The translations under genes were made by a program, and so were the position numbers. From NCBI RefSeq assembly GCF_030463535.1, contig NC_132893.1, forward strand, positions 20,568,027 to 20,632,026: DNA of 64,000 bases, in the 5' to 3' direction. The notes under the pieces were generated by a model, which did no database searches, had not been told where the DNA came from, and saw only the letters and a program-made list of their open reading frames with translations. Source of the DNA: Salminus brasiliensis (lineage: Eukaryota > Chordata > Actinopteri > Characiformes > Bryconidae). Shown in pieces: positions 14,945-57,752 of this stretch; position 1 is the stretch's first letter, and each line of letters opens with the position of its first letter.

Positions 14945-14998
<54 letters not shown>

Positions 14999-15127: not shown

Positions 15128-15129
15128 AT

Positions 15130-17989: not shown

Positions 17990-18029
17990 ATATACACAAA
18001 ATAAGAAATACCGAGTATATTTGCATTAA

Positions 18030-20400: not shown

Positions 20401-20440
20401 AGGGATGCCTAAAAACACAAAAAAAACTGCCTTCTTGTAC

Positions 20441-22769: not shown

Positions 22770-22812
22770 TGGCACGAATCTGATGATAACTTACATTACA
22801 TCTGGATTAAGA
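22770..22812 (+). pseudogene. cd96 exon 5 relic (copy B)
   Basis: ATGGCACGAATCTGATGATAACTT followed directly by ACATTACATCTGG matches cd96 exon 5 with the Cys-to-HY segment deleted. Only about 43 nt are left. Confidence 0.7.
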
Positions 22813-22902
22813 TAATATACAATTTAAACTGTGGCCCAGCTTTTTTATGTACATTATCATTATCTGCAGTTATTGTTTACAATATATTCTGCTCCCCCAC
22901 AG

Positions 22903-23028
22903 GGAAATGTGTTGCTATCTGACAGCGCCACTTTTAGCCTGTGCTTAGCAAGCCCTGAACACGTTGGAATGTACCTTATTATGATTGTTCATGCAGAAAA
23001 AACCTTGTGCTCAACAGGATGCATGCAG
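22903..23028 (+). pseudogene. cd96 Ig D3 exon 6 relic (copy B)
   Basis: Acceptor CTCCCCCACAG and donor GCAG|GTGAGTGTG are kept. It encodes GNVLLSDSATFSLC and HVGMYLIMIV, and lacks about 30 nt present in cd96 exon 6. Homology to cd96 intron 6 continues to about 23240 (AAATCCCCTTT). Confidence 0.85.
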
Positions 23029-23239
23029 GTGAGTGTGCAAAGTGTGGTAAACTGATGGCTGTTTACTGCCAGCTCTAGTTACTTCTGTTCACAATTTCCA
23101 TCTTTAAAAAAAATCCCCTTTCACTAATCTCAGCTGCTTGACTCTCTACTATGTTCACGGTCATTGCCACCTACACAGAGAGACACATGCTATATGAAGC
23201 CTGCACTTCCTGTACTTTCTGCAACTGTAGTAGTGCACT

Positions 23240-24445
23240 CTTCTCCAGTGGCTTATGCTGTTCCTTACATACTTGCATTGCTATTCGCTAAATATAATGG
23301 CGCCCTAAAATGGAACACTGTTTTACTGTGGCATACTTGAATGACAGGTTCAGTACATGGAACTGACAGATTGTTAAACAGTGTTTGCTTTTTGCCGAAT
23401 ACCCCAAGTGTTATGTAACAGTCTGACTTGACTAAACCTCAAGATCTGCTCATTCCTAATATAATGCTCTTTTCTTTTGCCTTTGTTTTATCCAATATCC
23501 ATCCTTGCAATGAGAATAATTTTAGAGTAGGTACAGTCAAATGATGGACAAGTTTTAGATTCCTCACAGAAGGCATTATGTTTTTCCTAAGATGTCCTAA
23601 AACTTCATTGAATCCATCTTGCTTTCCACACACTGCATGTTTCCGGTGCCAGAGGAAGCATAGCAGCCCTAGAGCATCACAGAGCCTCTGCATCCACATG
23701 GAAGATGTATAGTTGGGCAGTGGGAATACAACAATCCTCAAAAGACCATGCCTTTCTGAAGTAAGCTGTCCTTACTGGCAGCTCTCACTCAGATACTGAG
23801 TGGTAACCTTTGATAAGATCAGTCAATAATAGCTACAATAGCTACATGATTGGCTATAAAACATCTGTAGTAACCACAAAACCCTATAAAGGACTGGATA
23901 ATCTTAAGGTCTGGAAACTGTTTCCATTAGATTACAGCACAGATCTTTTTCAGGATTCAAGGCTATGCCAGCTTCAGTGAGGCAGTGGTGGAAAAATAAG
24001 TTTTACCATCCTAGTAGCCTTGACATAGTGAGCAACTTGACCGTTTGCCCACAGTTGGGCAGAAGCTTTGGCCTCACTTGCTTGATGGGCGTCAGGTTGG
24101 CAACAATGAAAAATGCCTGCCAACCAGTGGACTATTCAGCAAGTGACGTCAAAGCCTCCACCCAACTCAGGAAGGGCGAAGCGAATTACAAACTTTATCC
24201 CAACTTGTATCACAAAGGATTTGGGCCCATATTTAGCAGAAACGTGTAATATGGTTCTCATATTAGTTGTGTTTCCAAAATAGGTCAGTTTAGTAGGACC
24301 TACCTTATTAACAGTGTGCCTCTTGACCAGGTCCCTTTTTTCCTTCCCTTTTCCTACTTCATAGAAATCAGAATACTTCCATAGACATTTTGAAAATCAA
24401 TTTTGACATTTGGGAATTGATTGGAAATCCTCCACATCTGCATCG
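23240..24445. other. unassigned sequence in the copy B intron
   Basis: Contains a 100-codon open frame on the - strand (23439-23741) and a 94-codon frame on the + strand (23965-24249), neither like any family I know. It may be retroelement debris next to the gypsy fragment. Confidence 0.3.
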
Positions 24446-24449
24446 AGAT

Positions 24450-25040
24450 CTAAGAATCTATCCACATCTGCATCTAAGAATCGATTTTTTCACCTCAACC
24501 CTAATTGTGACGCCAAACTGTTGCTCAGTCGCTCTCAGCCTAGCTGTGTGACAGTGACTAGAAGAGTTACTATCTGTGAGAATGGTGAAATTATCTCTAA
24601 GCTTGTATTCACAAGTTTTCTCCATCACAGCCCCATTGACTGGATGAAGCTCAAGCTTCATTGAACTGAAATCATACATATTGCATTCTGTTGGCCTTAA
24701 TACTAGTAAAGGCAATAGGGCTCACTTTTCCTTCATGCTCTTGGTAGAGCACTGCTCCTAATCCATTATGCTGGCACCCATTTCCAGAATAAAAGGTTTT
24801 TGAAAATTGGTATGAGCCAAAACCTGGGCAGAGGTAAGCCATTACTTTAAATATTGAAACCTATGCTCACATACCTCATTCCATGGTACTAACAGGGAAG
24901 TCTTTCCCTTTTGACAAGGTCTAGCAAGCTTTCCCACCAGATGATGTAATGGTACTGCAAGCTTAGACAACCCACCCACCACACACCCACCCAAGGTAAA
25001 AGGCAAACAGCCCCTCTTAAGTAGCAGAAAACACAATCAT
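24450..25040 (-). mobile_element. Ty3/gypsy retrotransposon pol fragment (RT end and RNase H)
   Basis: The - strand reads GLSKLAVPLHHLVGKLA and LVPWNEVCEHRFQYLK, then NGLGAVLYQEHEGKVSPIAF, RPTECNMYDFSSMKLEL and NFTILTDSNS. This order is the tether region and RNase H of a gypsy polyprotein. Stops and frameshifts show it is dead. Sequence to about 26200 may belong to the same insertion but was not recognised. Confidence 0.75.
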
Positions 25041-26551
25041 TTCTTCATGATCATGAAGGGGGAAATACATGGGTAGTGTTGACACACTGGAGCATCAACC
25101 ATCAATCATGAGCAGTTAGGGTAGTGCAAACCAAATCTCCTCTTCTGGCAAATATACTCAAAGAGTTTAGTTAATACTTGTTCTTTAGTCAACCCCTCCA
25201 TGTCAGGAAAAGAAAGACCCTCAGCAACAGTGGTACATGGGGCCACCTGCAGTGTAGACTCATACGATCATTTGTGCGGTACCTACTATTTGACAAGGTG
25301 GGAGCCATGCATTAGTATTACTGGCATTAAAACAGGGGCATACAAAAGACCCTTCCAAACAATGACCAGAGTCGGAGACAGCAGCAAACCTTCAGAAAGC
25401 TGCAATCCTTTATAGCCCAAAAGCTCCAAAAGAAACTCTGTGGACATATGAACCCTAATATTCCTGGTGTCTTATGACTTTGAAAGATCAGATCAGATTA
25501 TTTAGGTCTTTAAATATCAATATTCATTCACTTAGAATGCACTGTCCAAGAACCACCGTATCTATTTCCATAGCTTGTATAGGGTATCTAACCTATTCAC
25601 CACCCTTTACAACCCCATTTATAATCCTTCTTTTGCAAATGAGAAAAATGTTTAAAAAAGAAAACTCACCATTGTACTTGTGACCATGAATCCAGTGTCA
25701 AGGGTCTATTGCAGTCCCCATTTCTATGCTAAGCACAGGGCAGCTCCCTACTTACTGACCATAAGAGGAAAAAGAAAAATGGACTGAGCCAAAACCTTGT
25801 GTGTGTGGCTCTGCCAATGGGGGAGTTTTCCGGCGGGCTAGTGGAGTTACTACAAGCTGCATGGACATTTGACATTTTGTTAGTGGGGACCATGCTCTGA
25901 GATGGAAGGGGAACGGTGGACTCAGAATTGGCTATGTGGGCTGGCCTATCACATCTAAGACAAATGGGTTGCCCATCACTAGTGCGCCTAACCCCTTAAA
26001 TGACTCATGGCCTTGCGGCAGACCATACATTTTATTACACACTTCTATTACAGAGGAATAGCCCCACCAGTTTGCACAGAAGTCCTGTATGATAGGTCTT
26101 AGTGTGTAATAAGTGTTAGGGGTTAAAGTGGCTACTGCTACATGGAGGAGGAGCTTGGACATGACTAGTAAGAGGTTCCAAATGTTCTGAGGTTCCAAAT
26201 ATCCAGCATCTGTGTTTTTACCATCACCCTCCTACTATCACTGCATCATCATATTTTAACATTTCAACACATTAAATGGGATATTTCACAACAAAGTAAT
26301 TTATCACAAAGTTTGAGCTGAATCTATTGGAATATAAGCAGCTATCTGCGCTCAAAAAGGATGAAGCATGCCAAGTATCTTGAATGTAGTTTCAATGGAA
26401 GGTGTAGTAGGCACAGTGGTCCTCATTTTCAGGGAACAATGATAAATAAACTCTCAAAAGCTCTTCTTTTGATGATGTTTTCACTATTTCTTTATTAGCT
26501 GATTTTACATCTTTGTTGACCAATGCTTATGGAGCTGTCTGTCCATTAAAA

Positions 26552-26800
26552 TCAAGAAAATCAGAGCAGCACCACATTCAATGGCAACCACACCCCAGAT
26601 CACGGATGGCCCAACTCTTAACAACAGCAAAGCCTAGCACTACTGTTACGACATCACAGCCAGGCCATATCAGCTGCATGTCTACTGCTCCCTCTAGTGG
26701 AAAGGTCATCGCATCACATGCAAAGGTGACCTGAGCACCTGCAGTTGAGAGCACTACACTAAAAGCCATCTTCACATGCACTTCCACAAGCTATTCCTCT
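26552..26800 (+). pseudogene. cd96 stalk-exon relic, 5' half plus 3' end (copy B)
   Basis: CAGAGCAGCACCACATTCA, CAGATCACGGATGGC, ACGACATCACAGCCAGGCC and the final CTTCACATGCACTTCCACAAGC align in order with cd96 exon 7, with several stops and a large internal deletion. Because this copy and the one at 17727 share a middle block, they are separate copies. Confidence 0.8.
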
Positions 26801-31221: not shown

Positions 31222-31790
31222 AAAAAGTCAAGTGGCTTTTATTGTCATTTCAGCTCTGTACAAGTACACAGTGAAATTTTTCCAGAAAGGGTGCCACATG
31301 GAACAAAACGAGAACAAAAAACAATACAGTACAGACAAGAACAATACAATACAATATAGAGGTAATCAGTGTAAGGTGCATATATATTTAACATGTAGGT
31401 AGTGGTAATAAGGTGCATAGAATGTGCATAGACATTTAACAAAGGGGAGAAAGACCCCTATGATCTTTTCAGCTGTCCTCACTATTTGCTGTAGGGTTTT
31501 GCGGTCAGGAAATTGCAATTCCGAAACCAGGCAATGATGCAGCTGCTCAGGATGCTCTCCAAAGTCCCTCTGTAGAACATGGTGAGGATTTGAGAAGGAA
31601 GATGAGCTTTCCTCAGTCAGGGAGTAGAGGCACTGCTTGGCTTTCTTAGCTATGGAGCTTATGTTGAGGGACCACGTAAGGTTCTCTATGATGTGGACGC
31701 CGAGGAACTTTGTGCTCTGGATGATTTCTGCAACAGAGTTTTGGTTGTTGACCGTGTCTTGTAGAGACGGATGTGTTTACACTGCTATAA
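31222..31790 (-). mobile_element. LINE 3' part
   Basis: On the + strand GTCAAGTGGCTTTTATTGTC with GTACACAGTGAAATTTTTCC is the usual 3' end of a fish LINE. 31560-31790 encodes on the - strand the terminal ORF2 region (SLTEESSSSFSNPHHVLQRD). Fragmentary. Confidence 0.65.
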
Positions 31791-31799
31791 TGTGGCTTA

Positions 31800-32510
31800 A
31801 ATGTGTCAGACCACATTTGCACTCTCCACTTTAGCTCAGCCCACAGGTTTTCAATCGGGTTGAGGTCTGGGGACTGAGATGGCCATGGGAAGACCTTGAT
31901 TTTGTGTCTGGTGAATCATTTTTGTGTAGACTTGGCCACATGTTTAGGGTCATTATCTTGCTGAAAGACCCAGTGATGACCCATCTTAAGCTTTTGGACA
32001 GAGGCCAGCAGATTGTGATTTAAAAGGTCCTGGTATTTCAAAGAGTTCATGATGCCATGCACCCTAACAAGGTTCCTGGGGCATCACCGACCCTCCCCTA
32101 TACTTCACAGTGGGCATGAGTCATCTTTTGTGTTACGGCAGACCCCCTTTGCTCCAGAGAGTTTGTTGCTAAAAAAAACTCTATCTTGACCAAAGCACAC
32201 AGCCCCAGTCTAAGTCCCAGTACCGCTTAGCGAACTCCAGACGGTTACGTTTATGCTCCTAAGTGAGAAACGGCTTTTTTTTAATGCATGCTTCCCAAAC
32301 AGCTTGTTGGCATGTAGATAGCACCTGATTGGTTGTTATGGAGACTTTGTGATGGAGAAGTTGTTTTAAGCTTCTGTATAATTCCTCTGACTGCAGATAT
32401 GGGCAAGTGTAGGCAAGTGGCTATTTGCTTGTAGCCATTATGACTTATGACCTGGATAAGAGAAATAGGTCTCTTCATAAGTTTCACATCATATTTATAC
32501 CCCAGGGAAA
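31800..32510 (-). mobile_element. degenerate Tc1-like transposon
   Basis: The - strand at 31985-31810 reads DNDPKHVAKS, then [20 protein letters not shown], the C-terminal catalytic region of a Tc1 transposase. 32281-32487 holds a decayed N-terminal part. It abuts the LINE end. Confidence 0.75.
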
Positions 32511-33951: not shown

Positions 33952-34012
33952 ATGGCCTCAGGCATGACCGAGATAGCTGCCACTCTTCTGATTTTTGCAT
34001 GTGTTGTTCAAG
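33952..34012 (+). CDS. cd96: cd96 exon 1: signal peptide
   Basis: ATG followed by a hydrophobic leader (TEIAATLLIFACVVQ) and a strong donor AG|GTGAGTGA; it ends in phase 1. A second in-frame ATG lies four codons on and matches the start kept in the upstream relic at 14085, so either could be used. The upstream ATG gives the longer leader. Confidence 0.88.
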
Positions 34013-37000
34013 GTGAGTGAAATTTGAATTTTACTTATTTAAGCTTCCCGGGCTTCAATCAATCTGTTCTGCACTTCTTTTCTATTGAGTGAGAAATCTA
34101 TGCCTAGTGTGAATAATGTGACGAGTGGCCTGATTACATTAACTTTTTTTCTCTCAAACTTCGGTTAATTCTCCATGAACATATCTCATCAATATTCTGC
34201 TATGAATAGGTAATGATTGTTTGTCAGCCATTAGCTACAAAACTAAATTAGTTTGCAAAGCTAATTAGAACCCCCATGTGCTTCTTAAGTGGATGTTATC
34301 TACAAGTTCTGTAATTATCTCAAGTATGTAACTTACTGACGTGGTACAGAATATCAAAAAGGCTTTAACGTGCATGTCACTTACAGGCACCTGTAGCTGT
34401 AACTCTTTTCTTTAGCAGTTTTTCTTTTGATGTTCTATCTTTCAAACCTAAAGCACTGCAAGACTGTGCAGCATAAAGTGACTAATGCTCTCCAAACTGA
34501 TCAACAGGAACCCAAAGTCTCCAAATAGAACACGAAGAATCACTAAATGCAACAGTAGGCCAGAACATCAGACTGCCCTGCATTGTGGCAGAGAAGCACG
34601 AAAAAATCATCAACCAGATTGAGTGGCATGCAGAGAGAGAAGGACTCAACAAAAAACTTGTGGTGTTTAATCCTCAGTTTTCCACTCATTATAATGTGCC
34701 TGTACAACTGCAGTTGGTGTACAGAACAAGCACAACAAAGATACAAGGCTCCATCTTGCATCTGTACAATGTGACCGAGGAGGACAGTGGAATTTATGTT
34801 TGTGAAATCTCCACCTTTCCTGATGGATCCTTCAAAGTCAGCACAAAAGTGCAATTTACGGGTAAATCCACAATAGATTTGGTTATTTTAATGCTCTGCA
34901 AAACAAAACATAAACTTAAGCCTCTTAAGCCTGTATGTATGTCCATATTTCAATTCTTCTATATATATATTTACTCTCATACTTAAAATTTATTTATTCA
35001 CTGCAAACCTTACATTAGTTTCAAATATGTTACTGAAAAATGTATACAGTAGTTAGTACCAGTAGGTAAAAAAAATACATTTGAATGTAATTCAGTAGAT
35101 ATTTAAATCATACTAACACTTTACCGTAGTTGCACTATAAATTCTAGTAGTAAATGTAAATGTCTTAAATGTACATGTCTTACTACTTTCTGAAAATTCA
35201 TGCTTAACTTCTACAAATTCATTGTGTTTACCAAACAGTTTGTAGTAGTAAGTAATTCATGGCAATGATTAAATAATTCATCATGGTTGATAATTTGTCA
35301 AATAATTCAGAATAGTTACTGAATATTTCATAGTTATTACAAAATTTGTTTATATAGTTTATAAATGTTACATTTTTACTGATTATCTAAATAGTTTGCA
35401 GTAGTTACTGCATATTAGTTCACAGTTGCTGTATAATCTATAGAAATTAATGAATAAAGCATAATATTTACTGATTAGTTCATGGTAGTTCCTAAATATT
35501 TTATTTGAGTTACTGACTACCTCATAGTAGTTACTGAATAATTCATAGTAGTTAATGAATATTTCATAGCATTTACTGATGAACATATGGTATTTACTGA
35601 ACAGTACATCTGAGTTATTGATTACATCAAAGTAGTTACAGAAAATGTCATAGGTTTTACTGAATATTTAATCATAGTTACTGAATAATCTATAGAAATT
35701 AATTTAAAAAATGCATATTTACTGATTCATTTATGATAGTTCCTGAATATTTTATTTGAGTTACTGATTACCTTTTAGCAGTTACTATATAATTCATAGT
35801 AGTTCATTCTTAGCAGCTACTGAATATTTCATCATAATTACTGAGTAATCTACAGCAGTTAATAAATCATAGTAGTAAACAATTCATAGTAGTTACTAAA
35901 TATTTCATAGAATTTACTGATGAACGTATAGAATTAACTGAACAGTACATTTAAGTTATTGATTACATCAAAGTAGTTACTGAATATTTTGTAGTAGTTA
36001 TCTGCCAATACCAGTAAGCAAAGCAAATATCATATTGTTTTCTTCTTCTTTTTTTTGTCTCAGAGCCCTGGGTCTCAGTGAAGGTTGTATCCCCAGATAA
36101 GTCTCTGATAGAGGGGGATGAGGTGAACATCACATGTTTGAGCAATCCTCTAGCTGACAAATACAAGTTATTATCTTTACAGGTGAGCTACAAAGAACAT
36201 CATTCAACGGGCATCAATTTAAACAAACAATCTTCACATTCACACATCTCATTTACATAAAGCGTTGATTAAAGAATCATCCACTGAAGGGTTATTTGAG
36301 GAACCAGTCTGGTTCTTCTATGGCCCAGGATTCCCAGTCCTGGTTCTGGAGTACACCTGTCCTGCATATTTTGGTGTTTACCCTGGCAGGGGTACTCCAG
36401 GACCAGTGCTGGGGACCACTGTTGTATAGCATCTCTCCAAAGAACCCTTTTTGGCAGCTTTTATATCTTTTAATAGTATACCACCAGGCATTATGTGTCC
36501 TCATGAGATCACATGAGCTCATTCAAACCGTTCTTATTCCTCCCTACAGAGCAATTGGTCACTGGAAAGCCAAAGCGGACAGTTCACAATACAAAATGTC
36601 ACTCGTCACAGCAGGGACTTGATTTGTCGGCCCCTCTGGACCTCCTCAAACCAGCACTTACACAGCCTCAGAGAAAATGTGCAACTGACCGTGGACTGTG
36701 AGTGTCACACAGCCAGTGACTTCAATAACATCAGTCTACTCATGCTTCACAATCACAGCCTCTTCTTGTTTCTCCAACAGTTCTTGACAGCATTGACTGT
36801 AACTCCAGCAGCCAGATAGAGGTGGAGACTGGCACGAATCTGACAATAACTTGTGAGGCAAAGTCTTCGAGGTCCTTGCATTACATCTGGATGAAGGTAT
36901 TACATATCTAAAGTGAAATATTATTATAAAAGCTAAACCATATTGCACATTTAGACAGATGCCTGAAACTGATAGAACATTAGTGATTTAAAACAATCTC

Positions 37001-40000
37001 ACATAAAAAATTGTCCTATTTTATATGAAGTCTCCTTAATAGCTGTGTAGATACACATTAACAATCCTTACAACAGTGGTGATGTATTCACTGTTACAGG
37101 TGCATACTCTATATAAACAAAAGTATTGGGACACCTGCTCATTCATTGTTTCTTCTGAAATCCAGGGTATTAAAAAATAAGCTTATTCTACTTTTACCGG
37201 AGTAACTGTCTCAACTCAACTCACCCATCAAGTATTGGATGAGGCATCATCATTCCAGATAACAGTTCCACTGCTCCCAAGCTCAATGCTTGAAGGGGGG
37301 GTTGTTATACCCCTCTAGCCCATGCTTGACATTAGGGAAGGAGCCAAAAAGGTCATGTTCATTTACTCCAGAGAGTCCACAGGTGTCCACAGAGAGGGAC
37401 ACAGGTTACTTTTAAGATCAAATAGGTAAAACAGGGTCATCAGGGTAAATCTTCAGAGAGATTTTTGTTTAATATATAATACAGTCAAAATGTAAAGACG
37501 ATGTTTCTGTGCATGTTGTGCTTAAACCTGTTTAACTCTATCAATATCAGTTACATGTTACCCTTAGTTTGTGCCCTCACATAACAAATATGGCTTAACT
37601 TGGTATCTTAAGGAATTTTCTTGTGGTTGTGTGTTTAGTCTTTGGTGGACAATGGATGATGGAGAGAGTCTAGATTTCTCTAGGTTTCAAAAATCAGACT
37701 GTACAGGGAAGAAGCTATTGTGGAACAGATGCTATAATCAGTGGTGAAACTAGAATATTATGGGCAAAAACAGTCTTATGCAAAAAAAAAACATTAATGT
37801 ACCCCCCACAAAAAATGCACAATGCTCCAAAATTACTTTAAACTTTTTACATTCTTACATTCATACATTATTTACATTTATGTTGACTTTAATTGAAAGT
37901 TAAGAAGGTTGTTTCCTTCTCCTGAAAAGTTTTTCAGATTTTCAGTGCAATTATGCAACAAAAAAAAATGGATGAAGATATAACAAGTGTGGCTGATTAC
38001 TTATCCCACTCCATTTACATATAAATACAGTTGAGCTGCTCACAGAGGCTGGTTTTGCACGGACTGTTCTCAGCCTCTTTAAACCAGGCATTCATTTCTG
38101 CAAGGGTTTCAAAAGACATGTCACTGAGAGACTCCCTTAACAAAGGCAGCAGACACAGCAGCTAGACTGACTGAGCACTGTTTAAACCCTCCAGCAGATG
38201 TACCAGTGCAAAAAGATGATGTGCAAAATATGCTGCGTTATTATTTCACAAAGACTCTTAGCCAGAGTGAAATTAAAATTTTGTACAGAATGCTCTGGTG
38301 ATAAAGAACGGTGTCTCTTCACCTGTGAATTTTCAGTTCCTGTTTTGTCTCTACCTTGTTTATGGCTTTGCTGTTTAACCACATCCTTTAGGTCAAGTTA
38401 AGTGGTTTGGCCTTGTTATTCTTCAGTATGACTTGTATCTGTGGAAATGAAATGTTGACTACACAGACAACATTGAGTGTAGACAGATGACACAACCGTC
38501 TGTACAGAACAATAAACACTATCCAGGTAAGCAATCAGTAAGCTGATTTGTGGATGGACGATGTTAAAAAATCTGTGAACTGTGAACCTTTGGGCAAACA
38601 GCACCCCACAGCAGCATGAATGTTGAGAATTAAAGTGCAGTTGTGCAGTGGTGGTTAAGGGGTAATCAGGCTGGATAAACTATACAATAGGATAGGTGGA
38701 CAATGGATGTTGGAGAGAGTCTAGATTTCTCTATGTGAATGTTGGAGGCAACAGTGTTCAAGAATCTGACTACTACAGGGAAGAAGCTGTTGCGGAACCT
38801 TGTGGCGGTGGAACAGATGATATAGTCAGTGGCGTAACTACGATCTCATGGGCCACAGTGTGAAAACATCACTAGGGCCAAGCAAGCACAGAGTATGACA
38901 CAGTCAAGTACCTGTTGCTAAAATATAGCTTTTTGTTGTTGCAGGTCAAGGTTAGGACTAGGGCCAGGATGAGGGTTAGGACTAAGTTGTGGGTTGAGGT
39001 TAGGGTTAACATTACAGCCAGGTTAATAGTTAAAATTAGGTTTTGTGTTGAGGTTAGGGTTAAGATTAGGGCAAGATTAAGGTTAGGTTTTGGGTAAGGC
39101 TGGGTTAGGTTTTGCTTAATGAAAGCAAAATATCAACAGTAATTCTACTTAATGTAGATTAACGTAATTAAAGTAATTCATCAACAGAAGAGTGTATTCA
39201 GATGCTTCACTGATATGTTGCTGATGTGTTACTGATACACTGTTAATTCACTGGAACTACAAAGGACCACTCCAAATAGTGTTACCAGGCATACATATTT
39301 AAAAATGGCACAGTAGATGAATAAATAATTACCACATGATATTGGAAGTTGTGGAAGATCCGTTTAAAAAAACATAGATCCGGCCCCATGTATTGCCAGT
39401 CTCCTGGGTACCTGAGATGGTCAGTCAGTAGATCCTCTGCAATTTCTCAAATTGTTTAAACACTTCAATGTTTTGTTTCCACAGGGGAATGTTACTGTTG
39501 CGCAAAACGCCACTATCAGCTTGTGGTCAGTGAATCCTGACCACTCTGGGATGTACTCTGTGATCGTCTATGCAAGAAACCATAGCCGTCTCCAGAGGCA
39601 GAGGGATTTTCAAGTGACTGTGCTCAACAGGACGGATGCAGGTGAGTGTGAAAAGCTAAGTGCACTGGCAGAGTGAATCTCTGATAAGGCTATATCCGCT
39701 CTCCTATCAGTTCTTCCCTTTCGTTTCCAAAAAACAAAAATCCCCTTTATCAAACTTAACTGCTTGTCTGTCTGCTGCATCCTAGGTCAGCAGTGTCTGC
39801 AAGCTTGTCTGACCTCACTGTGGTCTGTTCTAAACTTGAAGCAGAGATGTACACTTCCTGCACACCCCGCCTCTGACGCTGAGGCAAGAGACCAAAAAAC
39901 CTCAGCTCAGCTCAAATCTTTTAGAAGCCTCTTAAGTGAAGGGACAAACGGCTATACCGTGACACTCAATTTCTCAGGCTGACAACAGCTTTACCAAAGT

Positions 40001-43000
40001 AAACAGTTGTTTTAACATCTTGCCATGCCTGTGCTTACACTACATGGACAAAAGTATTGGGACTTCTGCTCCTTCATTGTTTCTTCAAGGGTATTAAATC
40101 AAGGGTATTAAAAAAAGAGCTTTTGTTGTCTCTACTGTCCAGGAAAGACTTTCTACTAGATTCTGAAGCACTACTGTGAGGATCTGATTGTATTCAGTGA
40201 CAAGGGCCTTAGTGAGGTCAGGATGTTGAACGATCGCCACCCTACCTCATCCCCAACTCCCCAACTCATGTCAAAAGTATAGGATGGAACACAGTTCTAC
40301 TGTTTCACAGCTCAGTGCTGGGGGGCTTTATACCTCTCTAGTCCACTTCAGGTGTGCCATTAGGCATGGTGTCAATAGGTTCATGTTTATCTGCTCCAGA
40401 GAGTCCCATTCTATTGGCAGTACTTCTCTACAGGCACTAGACAAGCTGTGCGTATGTGTGCATGTTCACATCTGTGTCAGCTATGGGTGCAAGTAGCTGA
40501 ATGCATTCATTTGAAGGGGTGTCCATTAACATTTGGACATACAATAGTCACAAAAGACATATTTCAGAGCAGGTGTGCACTAATATCATGCATCTAGAGG
40601 GGCCAAAAGGTAGAAAGGTAGAAGGGAAGTAACAAAAGTACCTTAAGGGGGAGTTCCAGCACTTTTCTCTGTAACATAGTGGTTAAGTGGTTATTAAACC
40701 AAGTCATGGGGGAAGTGAATAAGGTGTGCATTTAAAAGTCATGTAAGGTCCATAATCAGACTTTAACCCTTTAAAACCTGAATCCTCAAATATTTGATAG
40801 ACATTTCTGTCACGATTTTTTGGCGAGCCGTCAACCATGCATCGTGCAGCTTAATTTAGGGCGTGCCAGTGGGTCTTTGCTATCGTATCGACAGGAAAAG
40901 TACACCTTACACAGAGTGGTCCTTCTTGGATTTTACACACATCAGTGTGACTGCTGGGTTGAGCGCATGTCCTATACTTTTTAGTATTTTCTGCTCTAAC
41001 ACGCCCACTTCAACTCAGGAAAGTGTTGCTCATGTGCTAATTCGTGTTGGGAGCAGCGAAAACACTACAGGGCTATAGGTTAACACACTCTCAAATGCTC
41101 AGGGTTATTTATTATTCATGTGCTGTAAATGTCAATTACAATATGACATCAAAACAGGGGCATCACGCACGCCAAATTTTAGGTAGGGCACAATTAAAGC
41201 GGTGGGTCATGGGGGGGGGGTGTTCACTAGAAAATAAAATAAAATAATGACGCAGTTTTCTGCAATTTGACATTTGATGTCTGCTAACCAGAAATATTCA
41301 GCCCCTTTCACCTGAAAAGGCGTTAGGATTATATGCTTACAACAGGTGTTGTACAGTTTTGTGCTTTTCCTGCTCAAGTACTCCTGACCTGGTAATTGCC
41401 AGGTTTTATAGGGCTGTTAGAGCAGGAAAATCAGCAAACTGTGCTGGACTCCGGCCCTCGCTACCCACCCCTTTCATAGAAGTGAATAAAATATTTTCTA
41501 ACATTAAGTCTTAATAAACAAAGAAAGACTAGTTATTAGTTTTATTTTGTTTGCAAATGCCCATGTGCTTTATTATTTAATCCGCAATCTCACAACGCAC
41601 TTGTTGGAGCATCCTTTTGCCTCAGGAACCTCGTATAAGCAATTTCAGTAAGTGCTGACAAGCTTCTCACACCTCTCTCATGGAATATTTGGCCATTCTT
41701 TTCATGCAAAAGCTTTCAGCTTATGGTTTGGTGGCTTTCGTGCTACAACTGCTTTCCCACTGCAAATCCCACCAAAGACTTTCAATGGGTTCTAAATCCA
41801 GAAACTGGGAAGGCCACACAAGATTTACTCAATAAAAAAAAAAAATTACTAAGGTTCAAGTTGGCCACAGAATGGATAACATTCTTCCTTAAAATGGCTT
41901 GGTGCACTATATGGACAAAGGTATGATAAAGTACAATGATTCCTTTCAATTATCAATAGATTGTTCGACCACCAGAAAATAGTCGTTGGCAGTTGCAGCC
42001 TTACCCCATATAGGGCCCTCCTTTTATTTCTGAATTTTCTGAAAGTTGTTTTGAATGTTTACTTCTAAACGATTTCAGGGACAGTGGAACGGCTGATTTC
42101 TAAGTGTTCTGAGATCTTTTTAAATCCCTTCCCAGACTCCCAAATGCATCTACAACCGTCTTTCTGAAGGCCTCAGGGAGCTCTTGGAATCTTTCCATGG
42201 TAATACCACTCACTTCAACAATCAAGAGAAGTGAGTGGAATGGGTGTCCTAACTTTTCCCCTTACAATAAAATTTTCTCAAAGACTTTTGTTTCAGTGTT
42301 ATTTGTTTGTTTTTATTACTTCCATCTCTATATCTCTATATCATCTCTATATATATATAACTGTTTGCACTTTTTATTCTCAAGTTTAAAAAATGGATTG
42401 ATTACCAACAGAGCGCTGTGTGCTCATGCACCTCCTGTTGCAAACCAGTTTCATCCTTTAACATTTGGAAGACACTAGTAGCATAGAAGAAAAGGGTGTG
42501 TTCATCTGATCATATATAGGATACATATTTAGGAGAATATTTTTAAGACATCATATAAATTAGGGGATGTCCTGATCAGGTTATTTTGCCTTCTGATTTA
42601 ATCTCTTAATATTGAGTATCAGCCGATACTGATCCAATCTGATCTTTGTGTTTGTATAAATAATACAGCCGCACAGTTTAGATCAGATGAGCTGCTGATT
42701 AATATTTACATTATTAATAAAATCACGTTATTTTTAGTAGCGGTTTCTATAATGAGAAATTCTGGACAGGCTGGTTTAGTTTAGTAGAGACTTTTCTAAA
42801 AATGACTGTTTATAGTGTGTTTAATATCTTATAATCCAGTGTGACTCTCCTCTCTGACCAATCAGCTCTATAGCATGTGTGTGTATAAGCATTAGTGTTA
42901 GCCTCCCCTTGGTTCTAAATGCGCTCATCATTACTGGTTTAAAAACCAAGAAAGGCATGCGGTTCTCCTGCTGGTAAAACAGAGGTTTTCAGTGATAGTT

Positions 43001-46000
43001 TTATGAAGTTCTAGATATTACTGCAGACTCTGAAGCCTTTTACTGCCAATAATGTCTGGTAATGGTGCCTTGAGGCCACCAGAAGGTGCTCTGAACACTG
43101 TGGTTAAAACAAACACTAGAAACTGAATTAGGAATAAAATAGCAGATACCAGTCCATTAAAATATGCCTGGCTTCCAAGCTATTGGAGAGATCCCTGATA
43201 TAAAACGATCACAACTGCATATTCTAAAAATAATGGCAGTACAATAAAATACAAATATAAGAAATATAGATATCAAAAATCATGGGCCATGGGAGGCTTG
43301 AATGGGAAAGCCTTTTTTGATATCTGTGTTGATATGATATCAGTGTATGTTCTCTCTCATAAAATCTCATACGTCTGTATCTGTCTTTCCTTCAACACCT
43401 GTCCATCAAACAGAACAACACCTAAGCAGCACCATTACAGTGGAAACAACCTCTCAGATCACAGAGGGCACCACTCTCACAACAGCCGGACCAGGTACTA
43501 CACCGACAGTGACGACACAAGCAGGCCGTGTCAGCAGCACTGCCTTCACCACCTCCACAGCGACGGGCCTGTATGGCAACACCACTACTCCCTCTGCTGG
43601 AAGCATCAGCACATCACAAGCAAACCTCACCACTGCACATGCGAATGTCACTTCAGCTCATCCTGTGGAGAGCAACTCAACCTCGAGCGCCTCTCTGTAC
43701 GCTTCAGCTGAGAGAAGCACACTGTCTGAGGGCTGCTGTCTGTGGCAGAACATTACATCTAGCCCAGGGTCTACCAGAAAAAAGATCATCCATGCTCACA
43801 CAAATGCCAGCACAACCATCTTCACCTCCACTTCCATAAGCAAGTCTACACTGACCACAGAAAAAAATGTGCAAGGTAAAGTGCTGTTTATCTACTCGAC
43901 TTTCTTCTTTTTAGATGGTTACCATTTATTTAACCCTTTGAACCGCAAGAGCCTGGCCCTTGTGCTCACTTTCATAATGACAATATATATTGTTTGCATT
44001 AGAAACAGAATTATTCATAGTAGAAAAAGTTTTTAAAAGCATTAACATTTAGGTATTATGTTAGCTGCTGAGACCGGATTGCAGCACACAAATTGGGTAG
44101 AACACAGTAGCTCTAACATTTACGCCAACACATGAGGTAAATCAAGGTGTTGGGTAAATCAATGGAAACCACTGTCAAACCCATGCTGCTAACTGCTAAC
44201 TTTGCCTTTTTTTTTTTACTTACAAAACACACTAAATGCAGGGTTCTGTGGTTTTAGGCAAGGCAAGTTTATTTGTATAGCACATTTCAAACACAGTAGC
44301 TTTAAATTGCTTTACAGAGACAAGGAAAAGTACAAAACATAAAAACAAGTAAAAGCAAGCAAAAAAGACAAATAAAACATAATAAAATGAATCATTAAAA
44401 AATTCATCAAAATAAAAGGGGACCTAAGGTATAAACCAGCGTTGTGATACTATATATGTTACTATGTTGCTATATGTTAATATATATGCTATGTGTGATA
44501 CTATATATAATCAAACAAACAAACTTTAATCTAAAACAAACGTAGCACCAAAAGTAAGGAAATTTGTGTTTGGATAGATTATTTTTATTATTATTCATTT
44601 TTAGATTATCTTTGTTGTAACAATGCTTCTTGGCAATAAATCGTATACCGCTGAGAAGCCTGTTAATACTTCTTTTCAGTGCTGTCACATTTGTAAGGAA
44701 CATGTATTTGTGGGATGAGCAGCAGAGCTAAGTATGTTGGTTGCGCCCACAAAAAATGTGCCAAATCCTCTCCGCCAATGCCAAACAGCTTATTCTGCCA
44801 TTGACTCGTTTGGTGATTGGTGGACTGGATGATTAAAGTTTGAAGAAACAAGACATATTGGCAATTTAACAATTTATTCATTTAACAAACAGAAGCCTCA
44901 GTAGTGTGTGGAAGAACCATATACAGCCATATCATAAGTCATAAGTCAGCCAACATGCTTGTGTTGGTCACTCTGGCATGAACAGCACGCCCAAGCTGAT
45001 CCCATAAGTGTTTGTTCAATTCCATCCTCTCCACTCCCAAATTCTGGAGGTAGTCTCTGATAAACTCGCTCTGTGGGGGCGAGCGTTGTCATCTTGGAGG
45101 ATAGAGCTCGCTTACAGGGTGATGAAACGTCCTTCTTGGGGTGTCGCCTTCTTGGGACGCTCACTTTACGTCCTGTCTCTGACATTCCCCCGCTAAATGG
45201 AACTTAGAGATGGTACTAGGGATCACTGCCGCAACTTGGTTTTTCGGAACACCAGCTTGAAGTTGCCCTATCACATGGGATGCCCTATACAGATCAGCCA
45301 AACGTGGCATGCCGATTCTTGGAGCAAACACCTACCGAGCACTGTAGCAGGGCCCATGCTCACTGGTGCTGCCAATCAGGTGCCAATCAGGTCAAAACAA
45401 GTGTCAATAGCAACAGCAAAATATGTTCTTTACAAATGTGACACCATTTAAAAGGGAAATTAACTGGCTGGTTAATTGCATCAGCAATGGCCCCCAGGGG
45501 CCGGATAGCATAGCCTAGCAAGAACTGCAGTTAATTATCTTTGATAATAATTCCTGGGTTTTATCGGATAGTGTTGCTGTCCTCTTTGTGTCCTCTTGGT
45601 CAGCTAGTTAGAAGCTAGAAGAGATAATAGTAGGGTCTGGTAGAGTAAGCTTGTAGCCTAGCACCCAGCTAATACCCTCTTACTTCACTGGCTCTCCTCG
45701 TGGCCATATTGTGCGGCCATCTCTCATGGCATTGACAGCCCTTCTCTGGTGGGTAATGTGGATACCTACAGTGTTGGCACGGCAGTCAACGGCTTTGTCC
45801 AACATCACTGCCACTGTGTTTGTGCTGGCTAACAGCCTTGTCCAACATTGCTGCCTTGTTCAACGAAAGTTACCTAACATAGCATTTTGAATTCTGCATG
45901 AATTCACATAAAAAATCCACTTTGCTAGCAAACATCTTTTTAGATCTTTGTGGTCATAACATCCTGGTCATGGCCAGCAATTAGCTTTAGCTAGGTTTAG

Positions 46001-47092
46001 CGTTAGCAAACTGTTGCTACATTTGCTGCTGCTAAGCGAACCCTTTGTGATTTCCTCATCCTCTTCCATGTCTTCTGAGTTCTGAGGTCTCTCCACCGTC
46101 CGAATACCTTACCACACGTCTTCTCCCCTTGCCAGATCTAAGAACTTTCTATTCAGCTTTTGTTGATCAGATCTATTCCTTTATGGCTGTTTCTCAGCCA
46201 TCTCTCCCTGACAAGGGCATGTAGTTCAACACATGGCTAGTTGGCAAGCGCCAGATACACATATATCTCCCCTGTCTCTCCCCTTCCCCCTTCCTGTGCA
46301 GGAGTTGGAACACCCATGTTGCTGATTGACTCGAATGGTACCTTGTGGCTTGACCTGGTCATTTTCTTTGTTTCCCATGTACAGAGTACAAACACTGGAC
46401 TTTTCCCCAGCATGCAAACTGACCAGCGAGCTAGCGAACCATGAGGAAATATTTGATCATTTTTACAAAAAGGGTACTGAACTGAAATCATATATATCTT
46501 TTAATACAGACTTCTCTAATTCATCTATATTTACGCAGAACCACACTTTTAAAAAGCTGCCAAAAAGGGCTGAAACAGTCAGTGTGCTTTTTTTTTAAGA
46601 ACCTCAGCTGAAGGCCACAAGTGGTTCCTCCACTGCATCGTTTCAAAGAACCCTTCATAGCAACTTTATTTTTGAAGTGTATGTGGTAACATGGTGTGAA
46701 TGAACATTAAAGTGTGTTATGGGTGTTTCCTTTCTCCATCAGTAGCTCTTCAGGAGTCCTTTATTACTAACGCATCTAACTTTCTCTTTGCTGCAGAAAA
46801 AAGTGGCAGTAAGACACACGTGGTGCTCGTCATCATCCCTATCCTGCTGTTGCTGGTGCTGATTGGCTTTCTTTACAGGAGATACCGCATCCAAAAAAGG
46901 TGAGAGACATATGAAGGGCCTGTGCGTCATCTCTGTCACTCTCTTCCTTTGGTCTCTAAACCCTTTCCGTCTTTCTGTCTTTCTTTCTGTCTCAGAATGG
47001 ATATGCCTCCCCCATTCAAGCCTCCTCCACCACCGGTGAAGTACACATCAGTGAGACGTCAGGATGTACCTATGACTGACATTTTAATATGA
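33952..47092 (+). CDS. cd96: CD96/TACTILE-like Ig-superfamily receptor, 9 coding exons, 538 aa
   Basis: Seen: nine coding exons, 33952-34012, 34508-34861, 36064-36182, 36550-36697, 36781-36896, 39485-39641, 43414-43875, 46797-46899 and 46996-47092. All introns are GT..AG, the phases agree at every junction, and the total is 1617 nt. Layout: signal peptide (1-20), V-set Ig (about 24-138; C45, W60, C119 in DSGIYVC), Ig D2 (139-227; C163, C204), Ig D3 (228-318; C252, W264, no second canonical Cys), Ser/Thr-rich stalk (319-472), TM helix (about 481-498), short tail. The tail has PPPFKPPPPPVKYTSV, very close to the human CD96 tail as I recall it, and VKYTSV fits the ITIM consensus. Known: CD96 is a T/NK-cell receptor binding CD155 and nectins. 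Inference: this is the fish orthologue. Decayed paralogous exons lie upstream and a TRAT1-like gene downstream. The main doubt is alternative exons, not identity. Confidence 0.92.
34508..34861 (+). CDS. cd96: cd96 exon 2: V-set Ig domain (D1)
   Basis: Phase 1 to phase 1 exon, 354 nt, encoding a whole V-type domain. It has B-strand LPCIV, C-strand IEWH, and DSGIYVCEI at the F strand. In nectin-family receptors the first V domain is the ligand-binding one. Potential N-glycosylation sites NAT and NVT are present. No copy of this exon was found in the upstream relics. Confidence 0.92.
35160..35990. repeat. AT-rich degenerate minisatellite in cd96 intron 2
   Basis: Dozens of imperfect units related to TTCATAGTAGTTACTGAATA run across the intron between D1 and D2, with AATTCATAGTAGTTA and TATTTCATAG recurring. 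Composition is strongly AT-biased. Confidence 0.75.
36064..36182 (+). CDS. cd96: cd96 exon 3: first half of Ig D2
   Basis: Acceptor TTTTTTGTCTCAG, then PWVSVKVVSPDKSL and VNITCLSN, giving the first D2 cysteine (C163). It leaves in phase 0 at CAG|GTGAGC. An intron inside an Ig domain is also seen in D3, so D2 and D3 share a split-exon design that D1 lacks. Confidence 0.88.
36550..36697 (+). CDS. cd96: cd96 exon 4: second half of Ig D2
   Basis: Acceptor CTCCCTACAG. The exon encodes QFTIQNVTRHSRDLICR, supplying the second D2 cysteine (C204), and ends in VQLTVD at donor T|GTGAGTGT, phase 1. A close but deleted copy of exons 3 and 4 lies at 21470-21682. Confidence 0.9.
36781..36896 (+). CDS. cd96: cd96 exon 5: first half of Ig D3
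   Basis: Follows an 83-nt intron ending TTTCTCCAACAG. It encodes an extra Cys (C234), then NLTITCEAK and HYIWMK, the B and C strands of a C2-type domain. It ends in phase 0 at AAG|GTATTA. Confidence 0.88.
37105..37395. mobile_element. non-autonomous DNA transposon copy, partial, in cd96 intron 5
   Basis: Begins near ACAAAAGTATTGGGACACCTG and carries GTTCCACTGCTCC and CTCCAGAGAGTCC. The same blocks occur in the same order in the fuller copy at 40045. The far end is missing. Confidence 0.6.
37640..38865. repeat. pair of direct repeats in cd96 intron 5 (37640-37765 and 38690-38865)
   Basis: Both copies read GGACAATGGATG, then GGAGAGAGTCTAGATTTCTC, ACAGGGAAGAAGCT and AGTGG..AACTA. They resemble fragments of a LINE 3' region. 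Between them is about 900 bp with no recognised element. Confidence 0.6.
38945..39120 (+). repeat. degenerate telomere-like GGTTAG-rich tract
   Basis: About 175 bp of interspersed GGTTAGG, GGTTAGGG and GAGGTTAGGGTTA blocks on the + strand inside cd96 intron 5. It is too degenerate for a recent interstitial telomere, but it is clearly repetitive. Confidence 0.6.
39485..39641 (+). CDS. cd96: cd96 exon 6: second half of Ig D3
   Basis: Acceptor TTGTTTCCACAG, then GNVTVAQNATISLWSV and DHSGMYSVIVYAR. The SGMY motif marks the F strand, but the usual Cys two residues after the Tyr is Ser (S291). It ends QVTVLNRTDA in phase 1 at CAG|GTGAGT. The relic at 22903 reads MYLIMIV in the same place, so the missing Cys is not a sequencing slip. 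Confidence 0.9.
40045..40555. mobile_element. non-autonomous DNA transposon, near full length, in cd96 intron 6
   Basis: Ends are imperfect inverted repeats: TACATGGACAAAAGTATTGG on the left and GTCCATTAACATTTGGACATA on the right (partly complementary). It has no coding capacity, and its internal blocks match the partial copy at 37105. It is a MITE-like element of a type abundant in fish. Confidence 0.65.
41560..42270 (-). mobile_element. degenerate Tc1/mariner transposon in cd96 intron 6
   Basis: On the - strand 42040-42200 reads MERFQELPEAFRKTVVDAFG, the N-terminal DNA-binding start of a Tc1 transposase. The rest (41590-41930) is the decayed body with a poly-A interruption. It is not functional. 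Confidence 0.6.
43414..43875 (+). CDS. cd96: cd96 exon 7: Ser/Thr-rich mucin-like stalk
   Basis: A 462-nt exon, phase 1 to phase 1, encoding 154 residues dominated by Thr, Ser, Ala and Pro with several N-X-T/S sites. This fits the long O-glycosylated stalk of CD96. A vicinal Cys pair sits near its end (EGCCLW, residues 426-427). An internal GGTACT at about 43495 could act as a donor, so shorter isoforms are possible. Two decayed copies lie at 17727 and 26552. Confidence 0.88.
44257..44420. repeat. interspersed repeat with GGCAAGGCAAG end, cd96 intron 7
   Basis: Starts GGCAAGGCAAGTTTATTTGTATAGCACATTTC and runs into an AAAATAAAA-rich tail, a widespread fish retroposon end type. Placement in a named family is not possible by eye. 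Confidence 0.5.
44880..45470 (-). mobile_element. degenerate Tc1/mariner transposon in cd96 intron 7
   Basis: The - strand around 44946-45060 reads NKHLWDQLGRAVHARVTNT, typical of the C-terminal region of a Tc1 transposase. Further transposase-like sequence continues to about 45400, with stops. Confidence 0.65.
45475..46790. other. 3' part of cd96 intron 7, unassigned
   Basis: Several short ORFs on both strands around 46230-46490, but none with a family resemblance or fitting splice phases. Confidence 0.4.
46797..46899 (+). CDS. cd96: cd96 exon 8: transmembrane segment
   Basis: Acceptor TTTGCTGCAG. The exon encodes a short polar linker, a helix of mostly Val, Ile and Leu, then the basic stop-transfer YRRYRIQK. 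It ends in phase 2 at AAG|GTGAGAG. An alternative acceptor about 50 nt upstream is possible, but it would not keep the frame without the tail changing. Confidence 0.9.
46996..47092 (+). CDS. cd96: cd96 exon 9: proline-rich, ITIM-like cytoplasmic tail and stop
   Basis: Acceptor TTTCTGTCTCAG. The exon reads RMDMPPPFKPPPPPVKYT, then a stop at TGA 47090-47092. The proline block and following Tyr are the strongest evidence for CD96 identity. I see no YxxM motif. Confidence 0.93.
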
Positions 47093-53833: not shown

Positions 53834-53843
53834 ATGAATGAAG
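53834..53843 (+). CDS. trat1: trat1 exon 1: start codon, 10 coding nt
   Basis: ATGAATGAAG|GTACGTTG. Only three codons and one base are coding. Chosen because it joins in phase 1 to the TM exon and an upstream ATG leads to a closed short ORF. A start within exon 2 cannot be used, as no Met precedes the TM helix there. Confidence 0.7.
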
Positions 53844-56800
53844 GTACGTTGTGATTATTTTCATTAAAAACAGTTTTCTGTTAAGCTTTCTCTACTTGAA
53901 ACTACTGATATTGAGTTTACAGAGTAAACAATGTATATCTCAATGTAGCATTGTACTCATTGTACGGAGATTTCTCTATGAGCATCTGTTCATTGTTCAA
54001 GAAATGGAATTAATAACAGTAAAACATTTTTATTAAAATCAATCAGATCAATAAGTGGAAATCAGATTAGAAGTGTAGCCTGGTGTAGCCTAGTGAGTGC
54101 CAAAGCAAGCCTGACCTGCTACGAAATTCTGTCAGTCTGTTTTGGTGAAAATAATACTTAATACTTAAGTTCGCGCAAACAACTTAGCTGTTTGTGCAGC
54201 ATTTAATTTTTTACTTTTACTCTTATTATGGTATTAGTTATTTTTATAACGCAATGCCAGTAGTATTTAAAATAACTTCTAGGAAACTGTAAAATGAATT
54301 TTTTGATCATTAATATAAAATTGGCCCTGTGCATTACTGTGTTTTGTCATTAATACTGTATGACTTTTAACTGAGCCTTAAACACTTATAATTATTATAT
54401 TACTTCCTGCCCAGTTGCACTTTACATTTAACAATGCAATTCTCTACATTGCACACCAACTGTTAATTATATTATGTTAATTATATTATGTTAATTATAC
54501 AGTTATAGTATATTGTGTATATTTAGTGTTTATATGTTTATATATATATATATTTGCTCATATCTTTGTAACAATACTATAAAAATCTATATGTATATAT
54601 GTTTCATCTTTATTTTATATATTATATTTATTCTATTTTTTGTTTCATGTGAGTGGGTAGTTATCAAAGCATTTCACTGCTGGTTGCACTGCATAAGACT
54701 ATGTTTGGGACAAATAAACTTAAAAAAAAAAACTTTGTTTTGATAACTTTTCTATCTTTTTTAGCATCTTGCCAAGGAGCTTACGTAGGTCTGTCTCTGA
54801 CATCCCTAGCATTGGTAATATCTGTATCTTTAAACATACTACTGTATTCATTGAGAAGAAAAGAAAGGCAGAACAGAGGTATGTTTTATACCAGTTTATA
54901 ATTATGGATATGAATACAATGAACATTTAGTTATTAGAGATTTTAAAATAACTTACATAGTAAGATGATCAATGTTGAATAGAACTTCAGACATTTTCCG
55001 TGCTGTATATTGATAGCTATTATCTTACATTTTTGGGTACCAGGTGCTGCTGATTGCTTATACAAATGGTGATGCTGAGAAGAGTTTAATGAAAACACTT
55101 TTAACTAAAATGGAAATTTGTAACATGTTGGATTTTTTTTTAAATGCCAAACTATACACAAATCCATTTATTCAATATTTATATATTTCTTATAGATGTG
55201 GAGGAGCCACTGTATCGAGATTCTATTCCTGATGACAGGTAGAATTGCCTCATTTCTCTGTGAGATCATTTGGGAATTGGTGTGGCATGTGCTCTGGTGA
55301 TGAATGACTGCAAATGGAATAGACAGCACCAGTTCTAATCCTAAAAATAATGAATATCACATAAAAAGTATAATATTATTTTCAACTATCACAGGTTTGA
55401 GGAAGACGGACAGCTCAATCAAGACAATCCTATTTATGGAAATATCTGCATGGATGGAGGAGGTAAATTTAGCTGTTTCTGAAATTCAAGTATTCTATTT
55501 TATATAGTACTGATCAAGAAAAACCTAACATTTTTTTTTAAAACTTCTTTATTTTTAAAACTGACATTTCACTATGTTAATGTTGTGTAATATAGTATTT
55601 TCTAACTAAATACATTTCTTAATACAAATACAATTTTACCATTTTTTCTACTACTGTTTTTTTGGTACAGGACATTTCAGGGAGACCGAATATGTGTGCG
55701 AACCTAAGACAAACCAAAACGCAAGGCAAGATGAACAGGTATGGTCTTCTCATTAATAATATGCAATTATGCTGATAACAGTCTCACACAACCATGAAAA
55801 GTATTTCTTTTCTAAACCATCCTGAAAATATCTGCCGAAAGAGATCAGATGTTTGAGGACATGATGTATTTTGAGACAGACTCTGAATCTGAACATTGTT
55901 GTACACAAAAGCAAATGGTTCAGTGTAAAGATAATTTCAAAATTATGTTGATATTGGTTGCTTGATTGATTTTTGCTTACAATATTTCAGATGATTAAAT
56001 CTGACTGATATGGTCAAGTGATATTTTCTAATTTATTTATTTAACTCCAGAAAAGCAGAAGATTTATATTTAGCTACTGCACAAAGTTGTTTAAATTTCA
56101 CCGCATTTGGAACTCTCCAGAATTAGTGCAAATTCAGGTCGATTTTATCTTTAAAAATATTATACATTTGCATGTATCGACATTAGAAGCTATGCACAAA
56201 ATATACTGAATATTGGAATCGACCTAGATTCCCTATATCGTTACGTTCCTGGTTCAAAAGGTTAGACAGTCTTCAAAATGCTGCCCTGAGAACTCTTAAC
56301 GTGAACATTGTTTTAGCTTTAAATAGTTTTTGGACTCTTACTATGTTTTTTTTTTTTTTTTTGGACTAGAAGTCAGGTAACTATTTTAAGCCATCCATCC
56401 CACGCATTTTAAATAAATCGGCCACACACAGAGAAATGCTGAGGCTCTTCGATTTCACACCGCTGCTGTGGTATTGTGCTCTTAGACCACCATGCAGCAA
56501 CAACAAAAAAAAAGGCCTGAGGAAACAGACATAAGAGTAGCTCATAAAGCCATAATGTTTGGACATGTGTAATGCTAGTGTTGTGCTTTAGAGCTTTTTC
56601 ACTTTTTTTTTACACCAGATTTTTATAGTTATTTAATGTTTTATTATGCTAAAGGTTCATGACCTTCAAAACCGTTTAAAATTTATTGGTATAAAATCTA
56701 TTACTAATGGTATAAAATGCATTACCATATAATAATAAAATAAAAATCTGTAAAGTTTCACAAGTACATGTTTTCATGTGACAACAATTAATAAATAATG

Positions 56801-57694
56801 TAATTGTAATCAGTAATCAATATTTTCACTATATGAAAACTAATATGTATGAAATAGGAAGAACGTTAGGAGTTGGAAGTTAAAGTAAATTTAGGGAGAG
56901 TGGAAAACTAATTTGGGCGTAAATGCAACACAGGCTTTTAATGTAGTTAAACCGATTTAAGTAGAACATGCTTTTCTTCAGATGTTTGTTTGTTTTACAC
57001 TAAAAACACCCCCTAGATCAGTTTATTCATCATACAGGTGCATTTAACATAGCATCTCTTTGAAGTGTATAAATAACTCTGTGAGAGCTAGCCAGACTAA
57101 TGTACAGGCTCCATATGGTGGGTGAGTTTTACCACAGTGTTAAAACAAAGCCTCCCAAAGTAAACAGCCCATATTCCCCTCATATACATTCGAGGCAGTT
57201 TATTTATTTATTTTTTTATGGTTTTAAGCAGATATTTATCATGAACACACTACAGATAAACTACCCTTCTGAGACTAGCTGTTCCACTTTATGGTCAAAG
57301 ATAAATTTGATACATCCATTTTTTACTAATCATATTTATTTTGATGCAGATATTTTACATGTTTAGGTAAGAAAGCTTGTCTGTTTACAATTTTGCATCA
57401 ATGCACTAGACTTTTTAGTATGTGTTACAATAAGCCCCTCACTTTGTTGTTATTAAGCCCAGTTATCAAATGCTTAAAATTAAATCTATCACTTTAAAGT
57501 GTAAGTATAATTTAACAAGTACATGCTTTAAATAATTTAGATATAAAATATAATCAAGCTATCAGAACAAAAACATTTGGCTCTTAAGTCCTATTAAAGT
57601 TTTGGATTTAGGTTTTAAGTTTTTAGAATGGTTCTTTTTCTAGGACAGAATGAGTTACTAGTTATTAAATAATCAATTAATAACTAGTGTTGAG

Positions 57695-57752
<58 letters not shown>

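Follow-up and report, generated by a model that had tools for sequence, protein, structure and literature searches.

The window analysed here is a stretch of 64,000 nucleotides from the genome of the fish Salminus brasiliensis (assembly GCF_030463535.1, contig NC_132893.1, positions 20,568,027 to 20,632,026), numbered from its first base on the forward strand. It holds a nine-exon gene on the plus strand (33952-47092) which, judging from its sequence, is very probably the fish orthologue of CD96. This type I receptor, also known as T-cell surface protein tactile, belongs to the nectin/CD155 receptor group. TRAT1 lies downstream of this gene (53834-60366, plus strand), and decayed copies of several of its exons lie upstream (14084-26791). 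The assignment to CD96 is based on the tail, on the domain architecture, on the neighbouring TRAT1 and on the presence of a separate CD226 gene elsewhere in the genome; the V domain is not informative in this respect.

The gene and its predicted protein

All eight introns of the gene model have a GT donor and an AG acceptor. The spliced open reading frame (ORF) has 1617 nt and encodes 538 amino acids, with the terminal stop codon as its sole stop, and the phases of exons 1 to 9 are 0-1, 1-1, 1-0, 0-1, 1-0, 0-1, 1-1, 1-2 and 2-0. The preliminary description of this DNA had proposed nine exons that join in phase to a protein of this length, and our analysis agrees with it down to the outer coordinates. 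The predicted protein begins with a signal peptide, followed in order by a V-set domain, two compact immunoglobulin (Ig)-like domains, a Ser/Thr-rich stalk, a single transmembrane (TM) helix and a tail about 40 residues long. Exon 1 (33952-34012) carries the start codon and the signal peptide, and exon 2 (34508-34861) carries the V-set domain, Ig domain 1, with a Pfam V-set match of 2e-17 in the whole protein and 1.2e-11 for exon 2 alone. Ig domains 2 and 3 are each encoded by two exons, one for each half of the domain: exons 3 (36064-36182) and 4 (36550-36697) for domain 2, and exons 5 (36781-36896) and 6 (39485-39641) for domain 3, which scores above the Pfam Ig_3 cut-off (34.6 bits vs 30). 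The stalk is encoded by exon 7 (43414-43875) and has 154 residues, 45% of them Ser, Thr or Pro (27 Ser, 38 Thr and 5 Pro); the 538-residue protein as a whole contains 17 N-glycosylation sequons. Exon 8 (46797-46899) encodes the TM segment, in which a hydrophobic 19-mer spans residues 481-499 and no cysteine is found, and exon 9 (46996-47092) encodes the tail with PPPFKPPPPPVKYTSV, followed by the stop codon.

Within the receptor group CD226 has two Ig domains and TIGIT has one. The combination expected of CD96, three Ig-like domains with the V-set domain foremost and a long Ser/Thr-rich stalk after them, is present in the fish protein, and mammalian CD96 has been described as having three Ig domains and a long stalk (PMC5966540).

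The tail and the ligand face

The tail exon translates as MDMPPPFKPPPPPVKYTSVRRQDVPMTDILI. Both the human and the mouse CD96 tail carry the string RPPPFKPPPPPIK and an immunoreceptor tyrosine-based inhibitory motif (ITIM) of the form IXYXXI (PMC5966540), and it is from this string as printed there that we count 11 of 12 identical residues for the fish tail core, PPPFKPPPPPIK. The earlier statement that the tail is nearly that of human CD96 is thus borne out for a short core; beyond it the alignment of the fish and human tails is weak. The human tail, we assume, continues with YT, and with these two residues added the match would be 13 of 14. In a local alignment the fish TM segment and tail scored 109 against the human CD96 TM segment and tail, the latter a partly approximate sequence, while 1000 shuffles of the fish stretch gave a mean score of 26.3 (sd 5.0, maximum 50). 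It is on this shuffle test, and not on the number of pattern matches in the genome, that we base the odds of a chance match. A degenerate codon pattern for PPPFKPPP had a single match in the window and none in 100 shuffles, and the codon pattern for PPPFKPPPP matched once (1 forward, 0 reverse) in the genome of 1,066,335,885 bases. The reversed-pattern control of PPPFKPPPP also matched the genome once (0 forward, 1 reverse), so that the genome search means only that no second copy was found and is no measure of improbability. No further copy of the tail pattern was found, either in the genome with the PPPFKPPPP codon pattern or among the 27 loci examined.

Both a class II proline site, PPPPVK, and an ITIM, VKYTSV, are present in the fish tail, and the ITIM overlaps the proline core. 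Compared with IXYXXI, V replaces I at both ends; VKYTSV fits the wider ITIM consensus, [SIVL]xYxx[IVL]. The intracellular motifs described for CD96 are a TM cysteine with a basic border (CX8RK), a proline tandem, the ITIM and, in human but not in mouse, YXXM (PMC5966540). The CX8RK cysteine has been seen in human and mouse and was proposed for kinase association, while YXXM is missing from some primates as well as from mouse (PMC5966540). In the fish protein the cysteine nearest the C terminus is residue 427, within the stalk, and the TM cysteine (CX8RK) is therefore missing. The first proline site has Met where the human site has the Arg that makes it class I (RPPPFKP), and YXXM is absent from the fish tail. 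Since mouse and some primates also lack YXXM, this motif is not defining for CD96, and CX8RK is not a family-defining feature either. With the class II site and the ITIM kept, and the TM cysteine, the class I arginine and YXXM absent, the unit common to this fish CD96 and that of mammals is one short cassette of about 14 residues, in which an SH3-type proline site runs into an ITIM, and not the whole tail.

The V domains of this receptor group have been described as having a key and a lock, of which the lock is less well conserved (PMC5966540, section 5). In our alignment of 13 domains the FG-loop key of the fish V domain reads TFPDG, in keeping with (L/T)YP or TFP at this position, and the C'C'' lock, AX6G, reads VVFNPQFS (VX6S). 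All 12 of the other V domains compared have the Ala of the lock, and 11 of them have the Gly, the exception being the CD226 of 6isa, which we take to be the mouse protein and which has Asn. The AX6G lock is found in the nectin group at large. The gene could therefore be CD96 by descent while its product is no longer an ordinary nectin-like binder, with the key kept and the lock lost, and would then meet another partner or make a one-sided contact. The Val and Ser that stand in place of the otherwise constant Ala and near-constant Gly argue for this, given the role ascribed to the lock (PMC5966540). However, the CD226 of 6isa also lacks the Gly, and 6isc pairs that same CD226 sequence with a PVR sequence; the lock is in general less conserved than the key (PMC5966540); and the AlphaFold2 prediction for the V exon alone, with a mean predicted local distance difference test (pLDDT) score of 47.6 and a predicted template modelling (pTM) score of 0.35, is too poor for judging the lock. 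We regard a changed mode of binding as a possibility, though a rather doubtful one.

The assignment to CD96

Two kinds of evidence from outside the gene bear on its identity, its neighbour and its relatives. The TRAT1 gene has six exons and encodes 227 amino acids. Its product is 34% identical to an approximate human TRAT1 sequence over 121 columns (E 6e-10) and matches Pfam SIT at 2.3e-5, where its 25.3 bits are slightly under the cut-off of 27.6; the TM exon alone gives a weak SIT match (0.075). Human TRAT1 and CD96 presumably both lie in band 3q13. The fish TRAT1 has the tyrosine motifs NPIYGNI and ISYASLDLSV, and its final exon lies about 4.2 kb downstream of the rest. Frames of at least 110 codons in the left flank, inspected by eye, yielded no nameable gene. 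A leucine-rich-repeat frame of 427 codons was seen on the minus strand in the last 1.3 kb of the stretch L020, open past the end of that stretch.

The V exon has matches with E <= 0.001 at three places in the genome other than the CD96 gene. One of them, on contig C1, is a CD226 V frame (71894317-71894541) that is followed by another Ig-like frame (by eye); the three CD226 chains occupy its first three PDB rows (2.3e-19 to 2.9e-19). The second is nectin-3-like (3.1e-29), and the third resembles it by eye. With this separate CD226, the fish has a CD226-like gene besides the one in the window. We also considered that the window gene is itself the CD226 of this genome and rejected this, the C1 locus being a clear CD226 and the V exon in the window having no comparably clear match. 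At the C1 locus (C1:71892817-71896041) the AX6G lock is intact and the key is TFPQG. A frame further along the same strand holds RRRRRRREEY, which we take to resemble the basic start of the CD226 tail, and the frames before the locus look, by eye, like what is presumably rotatin.

A number of observations weigh against the assignment to CD96, among them the missing tail motifs, the match of the reversed control and the changed lock given above. Ig domain 2 alone falls under the Pfam Ig_3 cut-off (17.3 vs 30 bits), and Ig domain 3 is without the canonical second cysteine in the half encoded by exon 6. TRAT1 is followed by TIMM10B and ILK (both matched with approximate queries), which are not known to us as neighbours of mammalian CD96, and the linkage we claim is therefore limited to TRAT1. 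Approximate queries for TAGLN3 and GUCA1C found no match in the 264-kb region, and the nectin-3-like loci are on contigs other than that of CD96. The remaining observations come from the V domain. Its identity to CD96 is 19.3% (6arq, human) and 17.5% (7s13), and to ten CD226, nectin, TIGIT and PVR domains it is 20.7-26.9%, with nectin-3 (26.9%) and CD226 (24-25%) at the top and TIGIT at 22.6%. In a PDB search with the V exon the first 12 rows were CD226 and nectins (best CD226 1.8e-10, then nectin-3, nectin-4 and nectin-1), and CD96 (6arq_A, E 8.4e-5) was row 36 among the 60 rows listed. The preliminary description had proposed a phylogeny of the V domain alone. In this tree of 13 domains one of the ten inner branches is well supported, the fish V domain has the longest end branch (5.02) and is not grouped with CD96, and none of five groupings is rejected by the approximately unbiased test, all having a p-AU within 0.217-0.362 (CD96 0.283, CD226 0.362, nectin-3 0.253, TIGIT 0.309, nectin-4 0.217). 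The low identity to human CD96 is in line with another earlier statement, that the ectodomain is far more diverged than the tail.

These V-domain results speak for another reading, in which the gene would be a paralogue among the nectin receptors outside CD96, for example a TIGIT-, PVRIG-, CD226- or nectin-derived one, with a tail that is alike by chance or convergence. Its V domain is closer to nectin-3 and CD226 than to CD96, the best PDB rows are CD226 and nectins, the tree leaves all five groupings open, and the V exon has a weak match to Pfam Ig_PVRIG (16.4 bits, cut-off 31.5). Such an origin is nevertheless improbable in view of the tail core, which agrees with the human and mouse string and scores far above the shuffles, the three Ig-like domains with their long stalk, the clear CD226 elsewhere and the adjoining TRAT1. 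Of the earlier identification as a CD96-like receptor, the part that holds comes from the tail, the architecture, TRAT1 and the separate CD226; nearness of the V domain to that of CD96 is not part of it.

The pieces upstream are all on the plus strand and correspond to exon 1 with the intron that follows it (14084-14175, with a 2-base gap in the coding part), a partial first copy of exon 7 (17719-17970, frameshifted), exons 3 and 4 collapsed together, with the first Cys of domain 2 deleted (21456-21698), exon 5 (22770-22811, with an internal deletion and its donor lost), exon 6 (22897-23042, with an acceptor near 22902) and a second copy of exon 7 (26539-26791, with a stop and a frameshift). 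Their aligned stretches are 70-92% identical to the intact exons, and relics of the V, TM or tail exons were not found among these pieces. As exon 7 is represented twice among them, there must be two copies, or else one copy was duplicated in part. Of the splice borders in the intact gene, six are echoed in the relics, namely the donor of exon 1, the acceptor of exon 3 and both borders of exons 4 and 6. An extra exon within intron 5, considered because domain 3 is short, was rejected, as the relic of exon 5 ends at 22811 and the acceptor of the exon 6 relic is at about 22902; from this small gap we take the compact domain 3 without a second cysteine to be complete. That the gene at 33952-47092 is not a working gene and is one more decaying copy of this array, as the decayed copies beside it and the missing cysteine of domain 3 might suggest, is very improbable, given nine open exons in phase, all splice signals and an intact tail core, whereas the relics have frameshifts, a stop, deletions and a lost donor.

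Some further features were seen in the window. The open frame over the exon 6 relic (22828-23055) is likewise without the second cysteine of domain 3. Right after the first exon 7 relic there is a long open stretch of low-complexity IHYTYSIH-like repeats (17935-18594), which is probably a tandem DNA repeat. A transposase fragment lies at 31649-31915 on the minus strand (Pfam DDE_3, 28.2 bits, cut-off 28.6). None of ten open frames of the window had a Pfam match above the cut-off.

Proposed mechanism and comparison with known receptors

If the gene is CD96, its product might work on T or NK-like (natural killer-like) cells, where the stalk would raise the V domain above the glycocalyx and the V domain would dock on a nectin-like partner through the FG-loop key TFP, as in the rest of the family. 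In the tail, the class II SH3 site PPPPVK would recruit a Src-family kinase, and this kinase would phosphorylate the adjoining tyrosine in the ITIM VKYTSV. The phosphorylated ITIM could then bind an SH2 phosphatase, which would damp activation. As the use of the CD96 signalling motifs is unclear in mammals (PMC5966540, PMC12412668), this order of SH3 site and then ITIM is a proposal, to which we give about an even chance of being right. The TM cysteine with CX8RK, the class I site RPPPFKP and YXXM are not shared by the fish tail, and the routes that use them would thus be either not ancestral or lost in this fish. Taken as a whole, a fish orthologue of CD96 with such a tail-cassette mechanism is the explanation that we consider likely to be the best one.

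The preliminary description had suggested that the signalling module, and not the ligand face, has been held constant from fish to mammals. This is too broad on both sides: of the signalling motifs, the class II site and the ITIM are kept and the TM cysteine, the class I arginine and YXXM are absent, and the ligand face retains the key TFP with a changed lock. With one fish gene set against those of mammals, constraint on the tail is also indistinguishable from an ectodomain that changed under relaxed constraint or by adaptation. We may speculate, and it is an unlikely reading, that what was ancestral and selected in CD96 is the 14-residue cassette, with an SH3 dock joined directly to its ITIM tyrosine, and that this unit persisted from fish to mammals even as one half of the nectin lock-and-key contact disappeared from the ligand face. 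The same signalling would then be directed to a different or one-sided partner, and the turnover of the array would mark the ectodomain as fast evolving.

In human and mouse CD96 the TM and cytoplasmic part is 80% conserved and the ectodomain 54% (PMC5966540), and lists of T-cell genes from Atlantic salmon (PMC8763012, PMC7593592, PMC8415484) and Nile tilapia (PMC8818700) include cd96. That the tail is better conserved than the ectodomain had thus been reported before for human and mouse, and cd96 had been annotated in fish; a characterisation of any fish CD96 was not found among the matches listed in the literature searched, which left most subscription journals outside. The gene described here adds one more fish member to a known family, and its tail motifs are now dissected with regard to which of them are likely to be old. 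Whether CD96 is inhibitory or activating is disputed (PMC12412668, PMC5966540). A distant orthologue that has the class II site and the ITIM only, without the TM cysteine, the class I site and YXXM, narrows the choice of motifs that are likely to be both old and essential, and the fish tail is a natural variant for motif testing. If the identity is true, the separation of CD96 and CD226 into two genes predates the split of fish and tetrapods.

Among known receptors, CD226 (DNAM-1) belongs to the same receptor group and provides the best PDB row for the fish V domain, but in this fish it has its own locus on contig C1, with an intact AX6G. The CD226 tail differs from that of CD96. TIGIT has an ITIM tail and no long stalk, and its V domain differs from the fish V domain in all but 22.6% of positions. 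The V domain of TIGIT does have a YP key (PMC5966540). The CD96 of Atlantic salmon and Nile tilapia shares the gene name cd96 and is named in gene and marker lists. Human and mouse CD96 have in common with the fish protein three Ig domains, a long stalk prone to carry O-glycans, a TM segment and a short tail with a proline core and an ITIM (PMC5966540). The fish protein differs from them in a V domain 19% identical to the human one, in its changed lock and in a domain 3 without the second cysteine, as well as in the lack of the TM cysteine, the class I proline site and YXXM.

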